A stretch of DNA of 38,833 bases from Sulfurimonas sp. (lineage in GTDB: Bacteria; Campylobacterota; Campylobacteria; Campylobacterales; Sulfurimonadaceae): the NCBI GenBank assembly GCA_030654155.1, contig JAURYA010000060.1:1-38833 (forward strand), written 5' to 3'. Of this stretch, positions 4,671 through 12,127 are shown piece after piece (position 1 is the stretch's first letter; each line of letters opens with the position of its first letter). The position numbers were made by a program, and so were the translations under genes. The notes below the pieces were generated by a model that was given only the letters and a program-made list of their open reading frames with translations, had not been told where the DNA came from and searched no databases.

Positions 4671-6065
4671 TTATCTAGTTAAGAAAAAGAGAAATTTGTC
4701 ACCGTTAAATGATAAATCCACCTGAACGCCTCTTCTATTTTCGACAACCTCAAGCAGACTGTCCACATCTTGATATGTCCTTGGAAGCGTTATATTTACA
4801 TTAATCAATTCATCTGCCAGAAGAGTTTTTATCTTTCCGCCTACTATATTTACAAGTTCGGCAAGCGTGTCTAATATAAGTTCCATATCATCCGTATTTT
4901 CACCGATGAGAAGCTCACATGCTTTTTTAGCAATACCTTGTGGAAAAACTAAGATAACCATGCCGTCAATATCCCCATAGTAGCCTATTGAGCTAGCTAT
5001 TTTGCCCTTTTTGTCTTCAATGATTAGATTATGAACGCTCACTGCTTCTTTTACTGCTTTTGCATTTGTCATCATCTCTAGCGTTATAACAGTGGCATCA
5101 ATAAATTTCGGCAGTTCTAGCACCGTTGCTTTGTTTAAAGCTCTTTTGTTTTTTACATTTGAGGCACTGCTTGCGCCAAGCTCTTTTAGAAGTTCTTTAT
5201 TTTCTAAAATATCATCCATTTGGGCATAAAAAAGTATCCCTGCATCTTCCATGGTCTCTCTAAAGATTTCTGGAGTTTTATCGAATTTCATTCCGACAAA
5301 ACAGATACTTGCGTTGTATTCTGCAGCTGAACTTGCTAGTTTGGAAAAAAAGTTAAGAGCGTGCACGTTCATGCTGATGACTTTATATGCATCAAAAATA
5401 AAAAGTCTAAAGCCTACATTTAGAGAGTTGTTGTGATACTCAATGTTAAATTTGTCGCCAATTTCAACATCCAAGAAAGAGGAGATTGTATATATGATAG
5501 CATTTCCCGTTACTCTTGTAGCAACTTTTTGCCCCATTTGTCCTAAAAAAGTAGAGTCAATTATGTAGTCGTAAGCATCTTTTTTCTCTTTTTTTTCATT
5601 AAACTCTTGTTCTGATTGTGCGATAATAGGGTTATGCCCGCCATCATGCAGCTCAATTGCAATGGCTGAACGCTGAGATTTGTCACTGCTGTAAATTAAA
5701 ATACTTTTATTTTGATTTTTAAAACTTGATGAAAACAGATAAGCTATCTCCAGAGTTTTAAAAAGGGAAAAATAAAGCTCATCATGAAAAAACCTTTTTA
5801 TCGCATCATATTTTTTACTGTCATAATCGCAAAATCCAACGGTTGCATGATTTTTTTTACGTATTTTAAAAAAAAGTTTTATAAAAATATCTAAACCGTT
5901 TCGGTTAAAAAAAACAACTTTTTTCAAAGAGACCAAAATCATGTCTGCTTTTAGATTTGTTGCGGCTTCAATATCCTCAATGCTCATAAAAGCGTTTGAG
6001 CTGTTTCCGTCTAAAAAACCTTGCGGCGAGAAAACGGCAATCCCATTTTTTACTACGGCCTTCAT
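4671..6065 (-). CDS. Multi-domain chemotaxis-type protein: STAS-like and receiver-like regions with a C-terminal CheX domain
   Basis: No single known gene matches the whole 464 aa. Residues about 1-110 look like a STAS fold (VVKNGIAVFSPQGFLDGNSS, then LKKVVFFNRNGLDIF). Residues 120-200 look like a weak receiver domain: the strand ending at D170 is there, but the usual paired N-terminal acids are missing. Residues 205-290 may be a second STAS-like unit. Residues 320-464 match the CheC/CheX phosphatase fold, with the catalytic E403 and N406 in LAELVNIVGGK. CheX enzymes dephosphorylate CheY-P, so a role in chemotaxis or motility signalling is likely but inferred. Its start overlaps the HDOD stop by four bases, implying coupled translation. 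Confidence 0.7.
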   Translation of the reverse strand: MKAVVKNGIAVFSPQGFLDGNSSNAFMSIEDIEAATNLKADMILVSLKKVVFFNRNGLDIFIKLFFKIRKKNHATVGFCDYDSKKYDAIKRFFHDELYFSLFKTLEIAYLFSSSFKNQNKSILIYSSDKSQRSAIAIELHDGGHNPIIAQSEQEFNEKKEKKDAYDYIIDSTFLGQMGQKVATRVTGNAIIYTISSFLDVEIGDKFNIEYHNNSLNVGFRLFIFDAYKVISMNVHALNFFSKLASSAAEYNASICFVGMKFDKTPEIFRETMEDAGILFYAQMDDILENKELLKELGASSASNVKNKRALNKATVLELPKFIDATVITLEMMTNAKAVKEAVSVHNLIIEDKKGKIASSIGYYGDIDGMVILVFPQGIAKKACELLIGENTDDMELILDTLAELVNIVGGKIKTLLADELINVNITLPRTYQDVDSLLEVVENRRGVQVDLSFNGDKFLFFLTR

Positions 6066-6868
6066 TCAACCCCCATAAGAGATGCGAACTCATCATATAT
6101 ATCGCTAATATACTCAATTTGAAAATCAACAAAATCGTTTAATCCGGCTTCAATAAACTCCGGTTTTGAAAGTTCATAAAAAAGCAGGAGATGCATCCAT
6201 TTTCCAAGAGTATTAATCTTTTCATCACTGGATGGTTTTACTCCTGATGAAGCTTGGATAATTTGAGCAATGCTCTCATCCATATCCCATTTTTTTGCGA
6301 TTTTTTCACAAATATCAAAAAGGCTAACCCCGCATAGACGAATAAGAATTGTGTTAAAATCAAGCGCTTTTGTAGTTCTTAAAAGATTTACATTATCTAT
6401 CTTTTCTGCAAAAAGAGCCTCTGTGACTATTACGCTTGCTGGCAATAGGCTTATTGCCGCGTAAATATTTTTATCATCAATGTTTAAATGTTTTAATATA
6501 GTTTCCCATTTTTTTGATAAATTTGCCTGAAACTCATGAAAAGTTTTAGCGTTTAGTTTAAATAAAACCCATTTTTTTGGACTTAAAAGAGTTATCATAT
6601 AGTTGTATACCGTCTGTTGCGATAGCGAAACACCGAGTATTCCAAATATTTGGGAGATGTCACTAACCTCATTTCTAAATCCGTATATAGGCTTGTTTAC
6701 TATATTTTTTAGATACGATTTAAGTGCCAAATCACCCTCTGCAATCTTTGCAGCCTTTGTTAACTCACCGATATTAAGCAGAGCAATCGTCTCACTTAAA
6801 ACTTTTGGTGCAGGAGGAATCTTTTCTATAAAATCATCTATTTTGTCTTTTGTTATCATGTTTGCCAT
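6062..6868 (-). CDS. HDOD-domain signalling protein
   Basis: An HDOD domain (a non-hydrolytic relative of HD domains used as a regulatory platform) covers about residues 10-210. Its typical start is seen as IPPAPKVLSETIALLN, followed by the KIAEGDLALKSYLKNIVNKP region and a YNYMITLL helix. No catalytic HD metal site is visible. HDOD proteins in Campylobacter have been tied to motility; here the gene overlaps a CheX-type gene, supporting the same theme. It is the first gene of the minus-strand cluster, with a possible -10 (TAGAAT) about 20 bases upstream. ATG at codon 4 is an alternative start. Confidence 0.85.
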   Translation of the reverse strand: MANMITKDKIDDFIEKIPPAPKVLSETIALLNIGELTKAAKIAEGDLALKSYLKNIVNKPIYGFRNEVSDISQIFGILGVSLSQQTVYNYMITLLSPKKWVLFKLNAKTFHEFQANLSKKWETILKHLNIDDKNIYAAISLLPASVIVTEALFAEKIDNVNLLRTTKALDFNTILIRLCGVSLFDICEKIAKKWDMDESIAQIIQASSGVKPSSDEKINTLGKWMHLLLFYELSKPEFIEAGLNDFVDFQIEYISDIYDEFASLMGVE

Positions 6869-6887
6869 ATATTCTTAATTTTGTTTT

Positions 6888-6893
6888 ATTCTA
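6888..6893 (-). promoter_or_regulatory. Putative -10 of the HDOD-rpe operon
   Basis: On the minus strand TAGAAT lies 20 bases before the HDOD start in the divergent gap with rpmB. No convincing -35 is seen. Position supports it; the motif alone is weak. Confidence 0.35.
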
Positions 6894-6987
6894 CCCGCAT
6901 AAGCATAAAAGAAATATTAAGAGCATCTCCGAAGAAAAAAAGAAAAAAATATTGTATCTGCCCTTAAGCAGAAGTTTTGTTTGGGCT

Positions 6988-6996
6988 TGATATAAT
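6988..6996 (+). promoter_or_regulatory. Putative rpmB promoter (extended -10)
   Basis: TGA-TATAAT, a perfect extended -10, lies 35 bases before the rpmB start, with no clear -35. It would drive rpmB, the short ORF and probably argJ. Confidence 0.6.
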
Positions 6997-7030
6997 TCGC
7001 AACTTTAAAACCTAATAAAAGGAGCTAACC

Positions 7031-7219
7031 ATGGCAAGAAAATGTGCTATAAGTGGCAAAGGCCCAATGAGCGGAAACAACGTTTCACACGCAAAAAACA
7101 GAACAAAACGTCGTTTTTTATTAAATCTTAGAACAGTGCGCATCACATTAGATGATGGTACATCTCAAAAGATTAAAATCTCTGCAAGAGAGTTACGTAC
7201 ACTTAAGAAAAATTCTTAA
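7031..7219 (+). CDS. rpmB: 50S ribosomal protein L28
   Basis: Basic 62-aa ribosomal protein of the large subunit. The N-terminus [20 protein letters not shown] and the [11 protein letters not shown] segment are typical of bacterial L28. The form has no extra zinc cysteines beyond C4. A strong AAGGAG site precedes the ATG. It is divergent from the HDOD operon and is followed at 18 bases by a short ORF that may be a gene remnant. Confidence 0.97.
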
Positions 7220-7237
7220 GTCTAACAGGACGTAATC

Positions 7238-7444
7238 TTGAATCTCTTAGAGAAGATTCGAAACTTTCTACATTGGGAGACTTCTCCCAAACCCCGCATA
7301 ATATTCAATAATGAGTCATATTTTCAATCTTTACCGTTTAGAATCTATTCTATTTTAATTCAAATGTCTATGTTTATAGGATTTGGTAGATTAAAAGAAT
7401 TAGTTAATAAAAGAGATAAGACAATGGAGTTTAAATTTGTATAA
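7238..7444 (+). pseudogene. Short ORF, likely internal-deletion remnant of a Kch-type potassium channel gene
   Basis: A 68-aa reading frame from TTG with a possible AGGA site. The first 48 residues (NLLEKIRNFLHWETSPKP, then FRIYSILIQMSMFIGF) look like the N-terminus and start of the first membrane helix of the potassium channel that usually follows rpmB in Campylobacterota. The last 20 residues (GRLKELVNKRDKTMEF) resemble, from memory, the C-terminal tail of that protein. Pore and RCK/TrkA-N domains are absent. The frame is open, so a precise in-frame deletion is the simplest reading. It could still encode a small membrane peptide. Its end carries the GGAG site of argJ and overlaps the argJ start by eight bases. 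Confidence 0.45.
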
Positions 7445-8615
7445 TATAATCTATTCAAGCGGCGGAGTCTGCGCAAGTGAAGGTTTTTTTGCCGATGGCG
7501 TAAGCGTGGGTCTTAAAAAGGATAACGCTAAAGATATGGCGTTTATATATTGTGAAGACGAGTGTGAAGTAGCCTCTGTTTTTACCACAAACAAGATGTT
7601 TGCGGCGCCTATAAAGCACTTTCGTTCAATGGGTGATTTTAAAACAAATTTTATAGTTATTAACTCAAAAAATGCAAACGCAATGACTGGGCAAGCAGGA
7701 GTTGAGGATATAAAAGAGGTGCTCTCTAACTGCCCATCAAGCATAAAAAACCCTATCATGAGTTCAACTGGGGTAATCGGTGTCAGACTTCCAAAAGCAA
7801 AAATTATAGAGGGAATGAAGCTTTTTGATTTAACAAAAAGAGACTCTGCAAGCGCGTCAAAAGCGATAATGACAACGGATACATTTGCAAAAGAGATAGC
7901 ATTTAAAATTAAGCTAGATGATGGAAGCAGTTTTAATATCGGAGCGATAGCAAAAGGTGCGGGGATGATAAACCCTGCAATGGCTACTATGCTCTGTTTT
8001 ATAACAACCGATGCAAAAGTTACAAGCAAAGAGATGCAAGAAGCTCTTGATGAAGTAAAAACAACAACATTTAATGCCATAAGCGTGGACGGCGATACTT
8101 CTACAAACGATACTGTTTTGGTTTTGGCAAACGGCAGAAGCGGAGCTTACGATAAAGAGGCATTTAAAGAGGCACTCTTTAAAGTTATGCACTTTTTGGC
8201 GCTGGAGATGGTAAGAGACGGAGAGGGTGCCACTAAACTTGTAACCTACAAGGTAACAGGTGCAAAAAATGACAAAGAGGCAGAGATTGCCGCAAAAGCG
8301 CTCTCAGATTCTCTTTTAGTCAAAACCGCACTCTTTGGCGAAGACCCGAACTGGGGAAGAATTGCCTCAACAATCGGAGCCAGCGGAGTAGAAGCTTATG
8401 AAGAGAAGCTAAAAGTCTCGTTTGACAATCTATGCGTTTATGACAGAGGCGAGATACTCTTTGACGCCGAGATGGAGAAGAAGTGCGCAGTTGTTATGCA
8501 GCATCAAAAGTTTACTATTTCGTGTGATTTAGGCATAGGTGAAGGAAGTTTTAAAGCATACGGATGCGACTTGGGTCACGAGTATGTTAAGATAAATGCG
8601 GATTATAGAACTTAA
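7437..8615 (+). CDS. argJ: Bifunctional glutamate N-acetyltransferase / ornithine acetyltransferase
   Basis: Transfers acetyl from N-acetylornithine to glutamate (cyclic arginine route) and may also use acetyl-CoA. The self-cleavage region GAIAKGAGMINPAMATML is present; by family knowledge the chain splits before the Thr of ATML, which becomes the nucleophile. Further signatures are TTDTFAKE and FGEDPNWGRIASTIG. Length (392 aa) is normal. The TTG start is supported by GGAG seven bases upstream; the protein begins MYNIIYSSGGVCASEGF, close to the family's usual N-terminus. No other arg gene is in the window. Confidence 0.96.
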   Translation: MYNIIYSSGGVCASEGFFADGVSVGLKKDNAKDMAFIYCEDECEVASVFTTNKMFAAPIKHFRSMGDFKTNFIVINSKNANAMTGQAGVEDIKEVLSNCPSSIKNPIMSSTGVIGVRLPKAKIIEGMKLFDLTKRDSASASKAIMTTDTFAKEIAFKIKLDDGSSFNIGAIAKGAGMINPAMATMLCFITTDAKVTSKEMQEALDEVKTTTFNAISVDGDTSTNDTVLVLANGRSGAYDKEAFKEALFKVMHFLALEMVRDGEGATKLVTYKVTGAKNDKEAEIAAKALSDSLLVKTALFGEDPNWGRIASTIGASGVEAYEEKLKVSFDNLCVYDRGEILFDAEMEKKCAVVMQHQKFTISCDLGIGEGSFKAYGCDLGHEYVKINADYRT

Positions 8616-8643: not shown

Positions 8644-8672
8644 TTGATTTATCTCTCCTTTTTGCATATACT
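8644..8672 (+). promoter_or_regulatory. Putative promoter of the haem operon
   Basis: TTGATT (8644-8649) and TATACT (8667-8672) are separated by exactly 17 bases, a good sigma-70-type arrangement about 80 bases before the cytochrome c peroxidase-like start. The -10 lies between the arms of the inverted repeat at 8654-8688, which suggests repression or activation at this site. Confidence 0.55.
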
Positions 8673-8688
8673 TAAAGCAAAAAAGAGA
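8654..8688. repeat. 12-bp inverted repeat flanking the -10 (possible operator)
   Basis: Arms TCTCCTTTTTGC and GCAAAAAAGAGA pair at 11 of 12 positions with an 11-base spacer that contains the TATACT -10. The symmetry around a promoter element suggests a dimeric regulator site. It could also be a weak hairpin after argJ, though no T-run follows. Confidence 0.45.
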
Positions 8689-8751
8689 TTTACATGTTAA
8701 AAACATTTTTGATAACTGATGCGGCTTTTGTATGAGAAAGGTTTCATCAAG

Positions 8752-9945
8752 ATGAAAAAGATTCTGTTTTATCCTATTATAATCGTCTTAGCTGCAATTT
8801 CCACCATCTTGATTATATCAGTCATCATACCACCAAAAGATATTCCAACGTACAGCGATGATAAGCTAAGAGAGTTTGCTCTAAACAAGGGGCTCAAACC
8901 TGTTCCTAGTTCATTTGAGCAGCTCATAAAACTTTTAGATAACGACTCCTCAAATAGTATGACGCTTGAAAAAATTGCACTTGGCGAGGAGCTTTTTTTT
9001 GACGTCAATCTCTCAAAAAATAGAAAAACCAGTTGTGCTACATGTCACTCTTTTGATAGAGACCTTAAAAACAACGGCGCTTTGGTAAGAATGCTCACAA
9101 AAGAGAGTAGCAGTGTTACGGATTGCGCGGCTTGTCATCTGCAAGACCAAAGCGGAGTAGATAGATTTACCTTTGCTCAGGGTGATGGAGGGAAAATGCA
9201 CCCGCACTTGCTAAATACACAAACCATTTTAAATGCATCTTTGGCAAAACATTTTACATGGAGCGGTGAGGTTAGTAGTATAAAGGAGCAGAGCAAAAAC
9301 TCATTTTTGGCTCATCACAAAATGAACATGACGGCAGAGGAACTTGAGGAGAGGTTAAGAGAAAATCCAAAATATGCAGAGATGTTTGAGAAGGTTTTCC
9401 AAGATGGCACTAGTTTGCAAAACAGCGCCAAAGCCATAGAAGTTTACGCAAAAACGCTGCTTACCAGAGGCGATTATGATAGATTTTTAGAGGGTGATAA
9501 CAGCGCAATGACAAAAGAGGCCAAAAGGGGATTGGCAAACTTTATCAGCATAGGGTGTAAGGGTTGTCATAACGGCATGAGCTTGGGCGGTCAAAGCATT
9601 CAGCGATTTCCACTTAGAGGATTTGCCCAGTTCTTTGAGATAGAGCCGAATATTGAGATTTCCCCTGAAATAAAGATAATAGAGAGAGCATTTCCTTTTG
9701 AAAATAGCGGCGGCTATTTAGGAAAAGATAATGAGCATCTTTTTCGAGTTCCCATACTAAGAAATGTTACAAAAACTTCGCCATATTTTCACAATGGAGC
9801 CGTTGCAAAGATAAGAGAAGCTGTAAATATTATGGCTAAGCATCAAATAGGGCGTAACTTGACTCCGACTCAGATAGATGAGATAGTGGCATTTTTAAGA
9901 ACATTAGAGGGTGAGATAGTAGATTATAAAAAGGAACAAAGATGA
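8752..9945 (+). CDS. Three-haem cytochrome c peroxidase / MauG-family protein
   Basis: Periplasmic dihaem-peroxidase family protein held by an N-terminal membrane helix (residues about 4-26). The family pattern LGEELFFDVNLSKNRKTSCATCH gives the first haem site (C95-H99), and IGCKGCHNG the second classical site (C269-H273). FRVPILRNVTKTSPYFHNG is the typical C-terminal segment. A further CAACH (C125-H129) lies between them, so three c-haems are expected rather than two. Peroxide reduction is the usual role, but MauG relatives do other oxidations. The ORF track begins at 8719; I prefer ATG 8752 because it gives a clean signal anchor after an AAAGG site. Its stop overlaps the next start (ATGA). 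Confidence 0.85.
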   Translation: MKKILFYPIIIVLAAISTILIISVIIPPKDIPTYSDDKLREFALNKGLKPVPSSFEQLIKLLDNDSSNSMTLEKIALGEELFFDVNLSKNRKTSCATCHSFDRDLKNNGALVRMLTKESSSVTDCAACHLQDQSGVDRFTFAQGDGGKMHPHLLNTQTILNASLAKHFTWSGEVSSIKEQSKNSFLAHHKMNMTAEELEERLRENPKYAEMFEKVFQDGTSLQNSAKAIEVYAKTLLTRGDYDRFLEGDNSAMTKEAKRGLANFISIGCKGCHNGMSLGGQSIQRFPLRGFAQFFEIEPNIEISPEIKIIERAFPFENSGGYLGKDNEHLFRVPILRNVTKTSPYFHNGAVAKIREAVNIMAKHQIGRNLTPTQIDEIVAFLRTLEGEIVDYKKEQR

Positions 9946-11750
9946 GAAGAGTCTTTGTGAAAATTGCTCTGTTTGCAATGTCTTTATCCGGTATATTTAT
10001 GTATGCGCCGTTTGGACTCTCTTGGGAGAACTTTAGAGTTGTTCAGCCTCTTCATATAGTTGGCTCGATTTTGATAATGCTCTTTTTTATGAACTCTTTT
10101 ATTTATCGTCATATACGCAGATACTTTTTTATAAAAAAGATAAACAGCCCAGATGGGTGGTTTCTTCTTTTAGCTTTTATTTTGGTAACGCTCAGCGGTC
10201 TGTACCTTTTCTTGGTCGGCAACCGAGGCGGAGATATCTTTGGAATAATCTCTTTTAATATTCACCTTTTTGGCTCATTCGTTTTGGCGGCTCTTTTTCT
10301 GTGGCATATCATAAAAGCAAAGAGGCAAAACGCGCAGCCGCTTGCTCTGTTTGTTGCGATTTTGTTCTCATATCCGTCCGTTTCATATAGCAAAATTACG
10401 GAGCTATCGCTTCTGGAGATAGAGAAAAAAACAGGGGTTTATCACAGTGAGGATTGGACTTCCTCGGCAAAATGCAAATCTTGCCACAGTGAGATATTTA
10501 AGCAGTGGAGCAACTCAAACCATAAACATATGGCCGGTTCAAACCCATACTATATGGTTATGGAGACGTTAGCTGGAGAGGTTGAGGGGCAAGAGTTTCG
10601 CAAATGGTGTATGAGTTGCCACAATCCAAGCGCATTATCTTTAGGTCACCCAAAAACAACGCATGCAATGGATGGCAACTTGGTAGGCAACGAGCATTTT
10701 GAAAGCGGTGCAAAAACACTTCTAAATGATTTTAAAGAGCATGGCAATTTTAGAGTTGAAGAGGGTGTTTCGTGTATAACATGCCATCAAATAAAAGAAG
10801 CAAAGAGCAAAGGAAACGCTTCGTTTACGCTCTCTTTGGATAGGGAGAAATATCTGCTTGAAGACTCTAAGTATGATTTGGGACGCTGGTTTAGCGAAAA
10901 ACTTATCAATGCAAATCCAAAAGTTCATAAAGAGAGCTACTCTAAGGAGCTTTACAAAGAGAGCCGTTATTGTGCTTCATGCCATGATGAGTTCCATCCG
11001 CAAAATGGTATAAAAATAGTCTCTACGTTTCAGGAGTGGGAGAAGTCGCCATTTAACAATCCAAAAGATAAAACTAAACACAAAAGCTGCATAGACTGTC
11101 ACATGACCTATATGAAAGATGGTAAATTCGCACCGTTAAGAGGCACTTCAACTGACGGCGGAGTTATAAAAGATGATGTAAAGGTTCACTATTTTGCAGG
11201 CTCAAACCACTTTTTAGCAGGGCTTAGAGATAAAGTGCATGAAGAGCAGACACTACAACTTCTTAGAACCTCGGCAAAACTTGATGTAGCTATAAAAGAT
11301 GGAGTTTTGGAAGTAGGCGTTAAAAATGTAGGTGCTGGACATCATCTACCGACTGGTGTAGCTGACTTTAGAGAGATGTGGCTTGAGGTTGAGGTCAAAG
11401 ACAAAGATAAAAAACTTATCTTCTCAAGCGGCAAACTAAAAAGCGACGGCAATATAGAGGAGGGGAGCAGACTGTTTCAAAAGGTTTTCGGCGATGAGAA
11501 CTCCAAACCCGTCGGGCTTCTCTTTTGGAAGTATAAAACGCTTCTAAGCGACACGAGAATACCCGCAGGAGAGAGAAGAGTCGAGAAGTTTGAACTGCCA
11601 AAAGGCACAAAAAAATTTCTACATGTAAATGTAAAACTAAACTTTAGAATCTATCCGCAGTGGGTTACTGATGCGGTAAAAAAGGTTTTTCCCGTTCTTT
11701 TAGATCCGAATGTAGTCGAGCTTGCAAGTGTACAAAAAGAGTTTAAGTGA
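9942..11750 (+). CDS. Membrane protein: putative b-haem four-helix domain plus pentahaem cytochrome c
   Basis: Five hydrophobic segments (about 5-25, 36-54, 72-93, 103-124, 132-149) precede a large periplasmic region with five CXXCH sites at C178, C223, C278, C344 and C383. Within the membrane part, H38 and H57 and the pair H108/H122 (in FNIHLFGSF and FLWHIIK, 14 apart) look like b-haem ligands as in cytochrome b561-type bundles. The haem region resembles the cytochrome c554/multihaem family (CKSCHSEIFKQW). After residue 420 a beta-rich domain follows (GAGHHLPTG). The layout recalls Geobacter CbcL, a cytochrome b fused to multihaem c. A role passing quinol electrons to the upstream peroxidase-like protein is inferred. 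Confidence 0.75.
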   Translation: MRRVFVKIALFAMSLSGIFMYAPFGLSWENFRVVQPLHIVGSILIMLFFMNSFIYRHIRRYFFIKKINSPDGWFLLLAFILVTLSGLYLFLVGNRGGDIFGIISFNIHLFGSFVLAALFLWHIIKAKRQNAQPLALFVAILFSYPSVSYSKITELSLLEIEKKTGVYHSEDWTSSAKCKSCHSEIFKQWSNSNHKHMAGSNPYYMVMETLAGEVEGQEFRKWCMSCHNPSALSLGHPKTTHAMDGNLVGNEHFESGAKTLLNDFKEHGNFRVEEGVSCITCHQIKEAKSKGNASFTLSLDREKYLLEDSKYDLGRWFSEKLINANPKVHKESYSKELYKESRYCASCHDEFHPQNGIKIVSTFQEWEKSPFNNPKDKTKHKSCIDCHMTYMKDGKFAPLRGTSTDGGVIKDDVKVHYFAGSNHFLAGLRDKVHEEQTLQLLRTSAKLDVAIKDGVLEVGVKNVGAGHHLPTGVADFREMWLEVEVKDKDKKLIFSSGKLKSDGNIEEGSRLFQKVFGDENSKPVGLLFWKYKTLLSDTRIPAGERRVEKFELPKGTKKFLHVNVKLNFRIYPQWVTDAVKKVFPVLLDPNVVELASVQKEFK

Positions 11751-12127
11751 AAACATTCTTAGTTTTGTTTCTGATGGCAGCAGCGCTTTTTTCAGAACAG
11801 ATAAGATGGCATAACGATTTTGACAAAGCTTTGTTCAAAGCTAAAGAAGAGAAAAAAGAGATAATGCTTTTAGTCTTAAAAAAAGAGTGTGCGGAATGTA
11901 AAAAAGTTTTTGTCGAAGTTTTTAATGACAAAGAGGTGCAAGAGAAAGTAAATAGAAAATATATTGCCGTTGTTGCTTTTTTTGAGCATGAGAACAGCTA
12001 CCCTGTAGAGCTTTTTTATACACAAAGCTTTCCGACTATATTTTTTGTCTCAAGTAAAGATGAATCTTATCTGCAAAAACCGCTAAGAGGCTATTTTACA
12101 AAAGATGATATTTTAGAAAGTCTTTGA
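11747..12127 (+). CDS. Periplasmic thioredoxin-like protein
   Basis: A 126-aa protein with a signal peptide (about residues 1-16, FLVLFLMAAALFS) and a thioredoxin fold. The CXXC site reads ECAEC (about residues 44-48), and FPTIFFV carries the expected cis-proline. It resembles the thioredoxin_7 / DUF255-like group of single-domain periplasmic thioredoxins. The GTG start overlaps the stop of the pentahaem gene (GTGA), so it is the third coupled gene of this operon. Keeping haem-site cysteines reduced for c-type maturation, or repairing oxidised partners, would fit, but the substrate is unknown. Confidence 0.75.
   Translation: MKTFLVLFLMAAALFSEQIRWHNDFDKALFKAKEEKKEIMLLVLKKECAECKKVFVEVFNDKEVQEKVNRKYIAVVAFFEHENSYPVELFYTQSFPTIFFVSSKDESYLQKPLRGYFTKDDILESL

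Follow-up and report, generated by a model that had tools for sequence, protein, structure and literature searches.

A conserved gene pair encoding a CCP-like trihaem protein and a membrane-anchored pentahaem cytochrome in Sulfurimonas and related Campylobacterota

Classical dihaem cytochrome c peroxidases (CCPs, PF03150) are represented by the CCPs of Campylobacterota and by BCCP from N. gonorrhoeae (NgBCCP), in which Gln108 and Glu118 are required for catalysis; bacterial CCP variants at the Glu and Gln positions are inactive (PMC10094543). Three haems, an uncleaved N-terminal helix and a CCP core are found in YhjA/Ccp from E. coli and QPO from A. actinomycetemcomitans, for which a link to quinol has been proposed, YhjA being thought to draw its electrons directly from it (PMC10301912). 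A c552 fold with five CXXCH motifs and, after it, a beta domain characterize T. tepidum c552 (PDB ID: 5ze8), Geobacter ExtKL and the sPHC and lPHC proteins of cable bacteria, and the c552-like, ExtKL and cable-bacteria proteins were grouped in 2025 as one pentahaem family (PHC) with an immunoglobulin-like domain (PMC11976967). CbcL is a di-haem-b plus multihaem-c quinol oxidoreductase, and it shares with related HydC/FdnI-like proteins the presence, in one polypeptide, of a transmembrane (TM) domain likely binding b haems and a multihaem c domain (PMC6295460). The parts of the locus presented here are ordinary in themselves, while their combination is unusual and conserved.

The window, i.e. 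the whole stretch of 38,833 nucleotides that was analysed, belongs to a source genome of 1.97 Mb whose nearest relatives bear the name Sulfurimonas. All features described below lie on its forward strand. Gene A (8752–9945) codes for a 397-residue protein of the CCP/MauG fold (PF03150, E 4e-39), gene B (9942–11750) for 602 residues in which a b-type-like membrane domain is followed by a pentahaem c domain and a C-terminal beta domain, and gene C (11747–12127, with a GTG start) for a secreted thioredoxin-fold protein with a CXXC site (PF13899, E 1e-10). The start of A was placed by alignment: an alternative ATG is found at 8719, and the alignment of most homologues begins at about ATG 8752. The preliminary description of this DNA had reported three open reading frames overlapping by four bases each, with three, five and no haem motifs and a CXXC site in the last product, and all of this was found again: the A/B overlap is ATGA (9942–9945), the B/C overlap is GTGA (11747–11750), and CXXCH occurs three times in A, five times in B and not at all in C, compared to means of 0.003 (A) and 0.007 (B) in shuffled-residue controls. 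The promoter that it placed ahead of the set corresponds to a promoter-like site, TTGATT-17-TATACT (8644–8672), with 9 of 12 matches. Taken alone this site is weak, since 14 such sites are present in the region and 8.7 ± 3.0 in shuffles; the nearest relative (locus L116) has the same two hexamers at the same spacing, and a more distant flank that has diverged.

Protein searches with A and with B found both in 39 of 149 related genomes and one alone in none, the 39 having been counted by hand from two lists of full-length or contig-cut matches of high identity, with an A considered real if it had three haems or was interrupted by a contig end, and with the genomes of one genus not being independent samples. 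Both genes are absent from about half of the surrounding genus, and the pair is also kept in the Arcobacter group. The named genome collection yielded 59 unfused B genes, from Sulfurimonas, Arcobacter and their kin; A lies directly upstream of B in 53 of the 55 with a visible upstream ORF, and the junction is a four-base overlap in nearly all paired loci. A and B are an obligate pair. C, on the other hand, follows B directly in fewer than half of the loci (24 of 55), and CXXC is present in 20 of its 25 homologues (absent from those of L117, L128, L131, L137 and L178), which makes it an accessory, optional neighbour outside the core. A three-gene unit was thus rejected as far as C is concerned, the majority of loci lacking it and its CXXC being inconstant. 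The earlier proposal was to fall if the genes occurred independently, and the genome comparison shows such independence for C and not for A and B. The constant association with A–B and constant CXXC expected of a thioredoxin belonging to the system were not observed, and its suggested role in maintaining or maturing the haem enzyme is not supported on the same counts.

Short-chain dehydrogenase (SDR) genes adjoin A–B about as frequently as C does (27 of 51 loci, often in the arrangement SDR-AraC-SDR), and in several loci the start of A comes directly after an SDR stop. The window and L116 are without an adjoining SDR and have the promoter-like site in its place, and for the AraC regulator of the relatives the source genome offers no true counterpart, its match being confined to the DNA-binding domain. 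The set had been called self-contained, a term that is only partly apt, as SDR/AraC genes directly adjoin the unit in about half of them and C is often absent.

A has an N-terminal membrane anchor (residues 8–26), and its fold is that of the CCP_MauG proteins with both the P and the E haem motifs, the best Foldseek matches being bacterial CCPs (TMt 0.83). It has in common with classical dihaem CCPs the fold, the E-haem CXXCH and Met, the Ca-site Asn and the inter-haem Trp, and differs from them in being membrane-anchored, in having B as an obligate membrane partner, in the replacement of Glu, Pro and Phe, and in a third CXXCH carried by a 30-residue insertion. None of the three motifs (residues 95, 125 and 269) varies across the three-haem homologues, one N-masked row excepted. 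Alignments with dihaem CCPs place the approximately 30 additional residues exactly at the N-domain haem, with the usual upstream context at the first CXXCH and the usual downstream context at the second; the first motif, the inserted segment and the second motif together span residues 95–129 (9034–9138), and the predicted model is of low confidence in this extra-haem region (pLDDT about 51–62 over residues 101–140), so that either of the two N-domain haems may occupy the old P site. In YhjA, and likewise in QPO, the extra haem belongs to a distinct domain at the N-terminus, whereas that of A is inside the P-haem domain, 30 residues past the first motif; moreover, YhjA keeps Glu270 and Gln260, while the Glu is lost in A, and quinol itself is the proposed electron donor of YhjA, where A has B. 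Assignment of A to the YhjA type of peroxidase was rejected because its third haem is placed differently and its Glu has been lost. A quick, midpoint-rooted tree that included half of the three-haem sequences puts these in a single clade (SH-aLRT 100) which branches from within the two-haem CCPs, and the closest relatives of A in it are dihaem CCPs from the same order. We propose that A derives from a two-haem Campylobacterota peroxidase which gained a haem beside the old peroxide site and lost the catalytic Glu.

Gln108 and Glu118 of NgBCCP correspond to Gln180 and Lys190 (codon at 9319–9321) of A, respectively, so that the two residues that active CCPs have jointly at the P haem are not both present. 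Amongst 51 three-haem homologues, the Glu position is occupied by Lys in 38, Gln in 7, Thr in 4, Ile in 1 and Glu in 1, compared to Glu in 22 of 23 two-haem relatives of the same order. The Gln is kept in A of the window and in 37 of the 51 homologues, and lost in 14, while the equivalents of Phe97 and Pro112 are Thr/Met and Ser/Met. Trp170 (inter-haem), Asn155 (Ca ligand) and Met361 (E haem) never vary in the three-haem set, which indicates that the electron-transfer parts of A have been kept and the peroxide site has not. The loss of the catalytic Glu argues against ordinary peroxide reduction, and the best reading of these alignments is that A is not an ordinary peroxidase, but a CCP-derived protein that has been repurposed. 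The periplasmic peroxidase-like enzyme of the preliminary description is not supported as a catalyst, the Glu needed for O–O cleavage being gone in 50 of 51 homologues, together with the nearby active-site Phe and Pro. At the level of sequence, the clade-wide loss of a catalytic residue is clear, and it alters the functional call: annotation pipelines would label A a cytochrome c peroxidase and it would be counted as peroxide defence, a label against which the residue data for the whole clade speak.

A peroxidase fed by quinol could nevertheless have been retained if electrons passed from menaquinol via B to A and hydrogen peroxide was reduced by a modified mechanism, with Lys acting for Glu or with catalysis by the added haem. 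This would suit the closeness of A to CCPs by both fold and sequence, its E-haem Met, Trp relay and Ca-site Asn, the P-haem Gln in 37 of 51 homologues, and the example of E. coli YhjA, a membrane-anchored three-haem CCP proposed to use quinol electrons (PMC10301912). We consider it unlikely, since the Glu is replaced by Lys, Gln, Thr or Ile in all but one of the homologues and the Gln is lost in 14, variants of CCPs at these positions being inactive (PMC10094543), since the third haem differs from the N-terminal domain of YhjA, and since the source genome codes for another, intact CCP of the classical type with both catalytic residues. Much less probable again is a MauG-like role, with A modifying a residue of B or of some other partner; the strict association of A with one partner protein and its low-score matches to the NCBIfam MbnH and MauG models might point that way. 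These scores are far under the curated cut-offs (TIGR03791 and TIGR04039; 141 vs 363 and 121 vs 444 bits), and the E haem of A keeps its invariant Met361, as CCPs do. In MauG, the E-haem ligand is a Tyr in place of this Met. A MauG or MbnH identity was rejected on the scores and on Met361, and the Glu lost in A is one that MauG requires (PMC10094543). A selenoprotein relative, MccSep, is present in the PDB; a literature search for it gave nothing usable.

The membrane domain of B consists, according to hydropathy, of five hydrophobic helices (approximately residues 4–152; 9951–10397) and contains four His (38, 57, 108 and 122) which are invariant in 45 of 45 homologues. They probably hold two b haems, and their invariance in the TM region favours the possible b-type haem mentioned in the earlier account. 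The unusual 19-residue spacing in helix 2 counts against b haems, and matches to Ni_hydr_CYTB are weak (6 of 45 B members, best 2e-4, with B of the window below the cut-off). The pentahaem c domain (10473–11105), with CXXCH at residues 178, 223, 278, 344 and 383, matches PF13435, as do all 45 homologues. The only Foldseek match below 0.001 for the periplasmic part of B is the T. tepidum pentahaem c552 (5ze8, E 5e-13), and the score against the ExtKL equivalog model NF040886 is 63 bits, compared to a curated cut-off of 250. The C-terminal beta domain (11271–11744) has a conserved GAGHxLPTG motif and predicted strands with a pLDDT mostly of 80–92, in a model that is weak overall (mean pLDDT 66), and it fits the immunoglobulin-like domain of the pentahaem family.

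With five CXXCH motifs, the c552 fold and the beta domain, B shares the characteristics of this family, to which it adds the tie to A and, at the N-terminus, the five-helix domain with its four invariant His; through B, the c552/ExtKL family gains a member that is anchored in the membrane and has a constant partner. The view that no named system has this composition holds, as far as found, for the A–B pair, but not for the periplasmic domain of B, which belongs to the named c552/ExtKL pentahaem family (PMC11976967). The fifth helix of many B members ends in a signal-peptidase-like pattern, and cleavage between the two halves of B is possible on that basis.

That A and B form an inner-membrane, quinone-linked haem relay with a repurposed CCP-derived partner is a proposition we consider evenly balanced. 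B, anchored by its five helices, would exchange electrons with the quinone pool through two b haems held by the four His, and these haems would also exchange electrons with its c552/ExtKL-type five-haem domain in the periplasm. The next step would take electrons to the three haems of A, which is built on a CCP scaffold and anchored through an uncleaved helix at its N-terminus. The retention of the E-haem Met, the Trp and the Ca site argues for electron transfer having been kept in A, which would most likely now relay electrons to, or reduce, something other than hydrogen peroxide. The route previously suggested, from the quinone pool through the membrane to a periplasmic partner, agrees with the obligate pairing and with an architecture of B that fits electron exchange between quinone and periplasmic haems; what it loses is the active peroxidase at its end. 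The best reading is that the relay resembles CbcL-type quinol oxidoreductases in its working and differs from them in its build: the order is reversed in B, with the TM domain first, the c haems are five and of another family, there are five helices and not six and four conserved His and not three, and the partner is CCP-derived. By analogy with CbcL (PMC6295460), the direction from quinol to A appears about twice as probable as the reverse. We also suggest, tentatively and at slightly less than an even chance, that the pair represents a Campylobacterota respiratory complex not described before, where a CCP scaffold with a third haem and without its peroxide chemistry now forms, as terminal reductase or electron exit, the periplasmic arm of a di-haem-b/pentahaem-c quinone oxidoreductase. 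If real, the relay would give the widespread sulfur-oxidising Campylobacterota a further quinone-linked outlet (or inlet) for electrons, and would illustrate the conversion of a peroxidase into a haem wire via an insertion beside its active site.

With the relay operating in reverse, A and/or B would take electrons from a donor in the periplasm, which might be a sulfur compound, Fe(II) or another cytochrome, and quinone would be reduced by B. The host is a Sulfurimonas relative, and the Sulfurimonas group grows on hydrogen and on reduced sulfur compounds. T. tepidum c552 has been suggested to function in sulfur metabolism (PMC11976967), and in four loci a neighbour of a B paralogue with a fused beta-propeller encodes an iron permease of the FTR1 type. 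As A and B have no known donor-oxidising domain, and as no sulfur-oxidation or iron gene recurs among the identified neighbours of the A–B loci, the reverse direction seems rather unlikely. The paralogue itself occurs in approximately 12 loci, has its propeller and one extra CXXCH between the membrane and pentahaem domains, and is usually preceded by a protein of 660–680 residues belonging to no known family. The membrane-plus-pentahaem frame therefore serves more than one partner, as expected of a general quinone-linked relay.

The multihaem membrane protein B has a paralogue that carries two additions between its membrane and pentahaem domains: a beta-propeller of YVTN/cd1-like type and one further CXXCH motif, the sixth (L169:4030-7431, with further copies at L168, L170-L173, L175, L176, L180-L182 and L185). 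In Aliivibrio sifiae, outside the Campylobacterota, this propeller fusion occurs without the membrane part. Immediately 5' of the fusion there is regularly a gene for a protein of 660-680 residues (L169:1854-3899, with homologues at 10 other loci); these proteins share 53-75% identity and have no match in Pfam or NCBIfam. The fusion is also adjoined by genes for an FTR1/EfeU-type iron permease, an FAD protein of the PRK07208 type and a protein of 192 residues that belongs to no known family (L169:7431-10221; L185:159-3001), and in this neighbourhood it is possibly a haem-based partner in iron uptake. Many congeners, and the genome of the window itself (L115:5636-6760), also encode distant kin of B's pentahaem domain as separate proteins; these have five haems, are about 370-415 residues long and lack the membrane domain.

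About half of the loci pairing B with the CCP/MauG-fold protein A carry SDR-AraC-SDR genes ahead of the pair (L119, L123, L126, L132, L163 and L165, among others). The SDRs are cytosolic, whereas the haem relay proposed for A and B is periplasmic. In the window, a 13-codon ORF (8694-8735) lies between the promoter-like site and A; its start and stop are retained in the nearest relative (L116), where many codons differ. This ORF may encode a leader peptide, or its presence may be due to chance.

At L119, the same region as L084, an in-frame TAA splits B (about 6001-7810) while A and the thioredoxin-fold protein C are intact, which reflects either an assembly error or recent decay. All three genes are present in a MAG whose record bears the doubtful organism name 'Helicobacter pylori PMSS1' (L178); their closest sequences are from Sulfurimonas.
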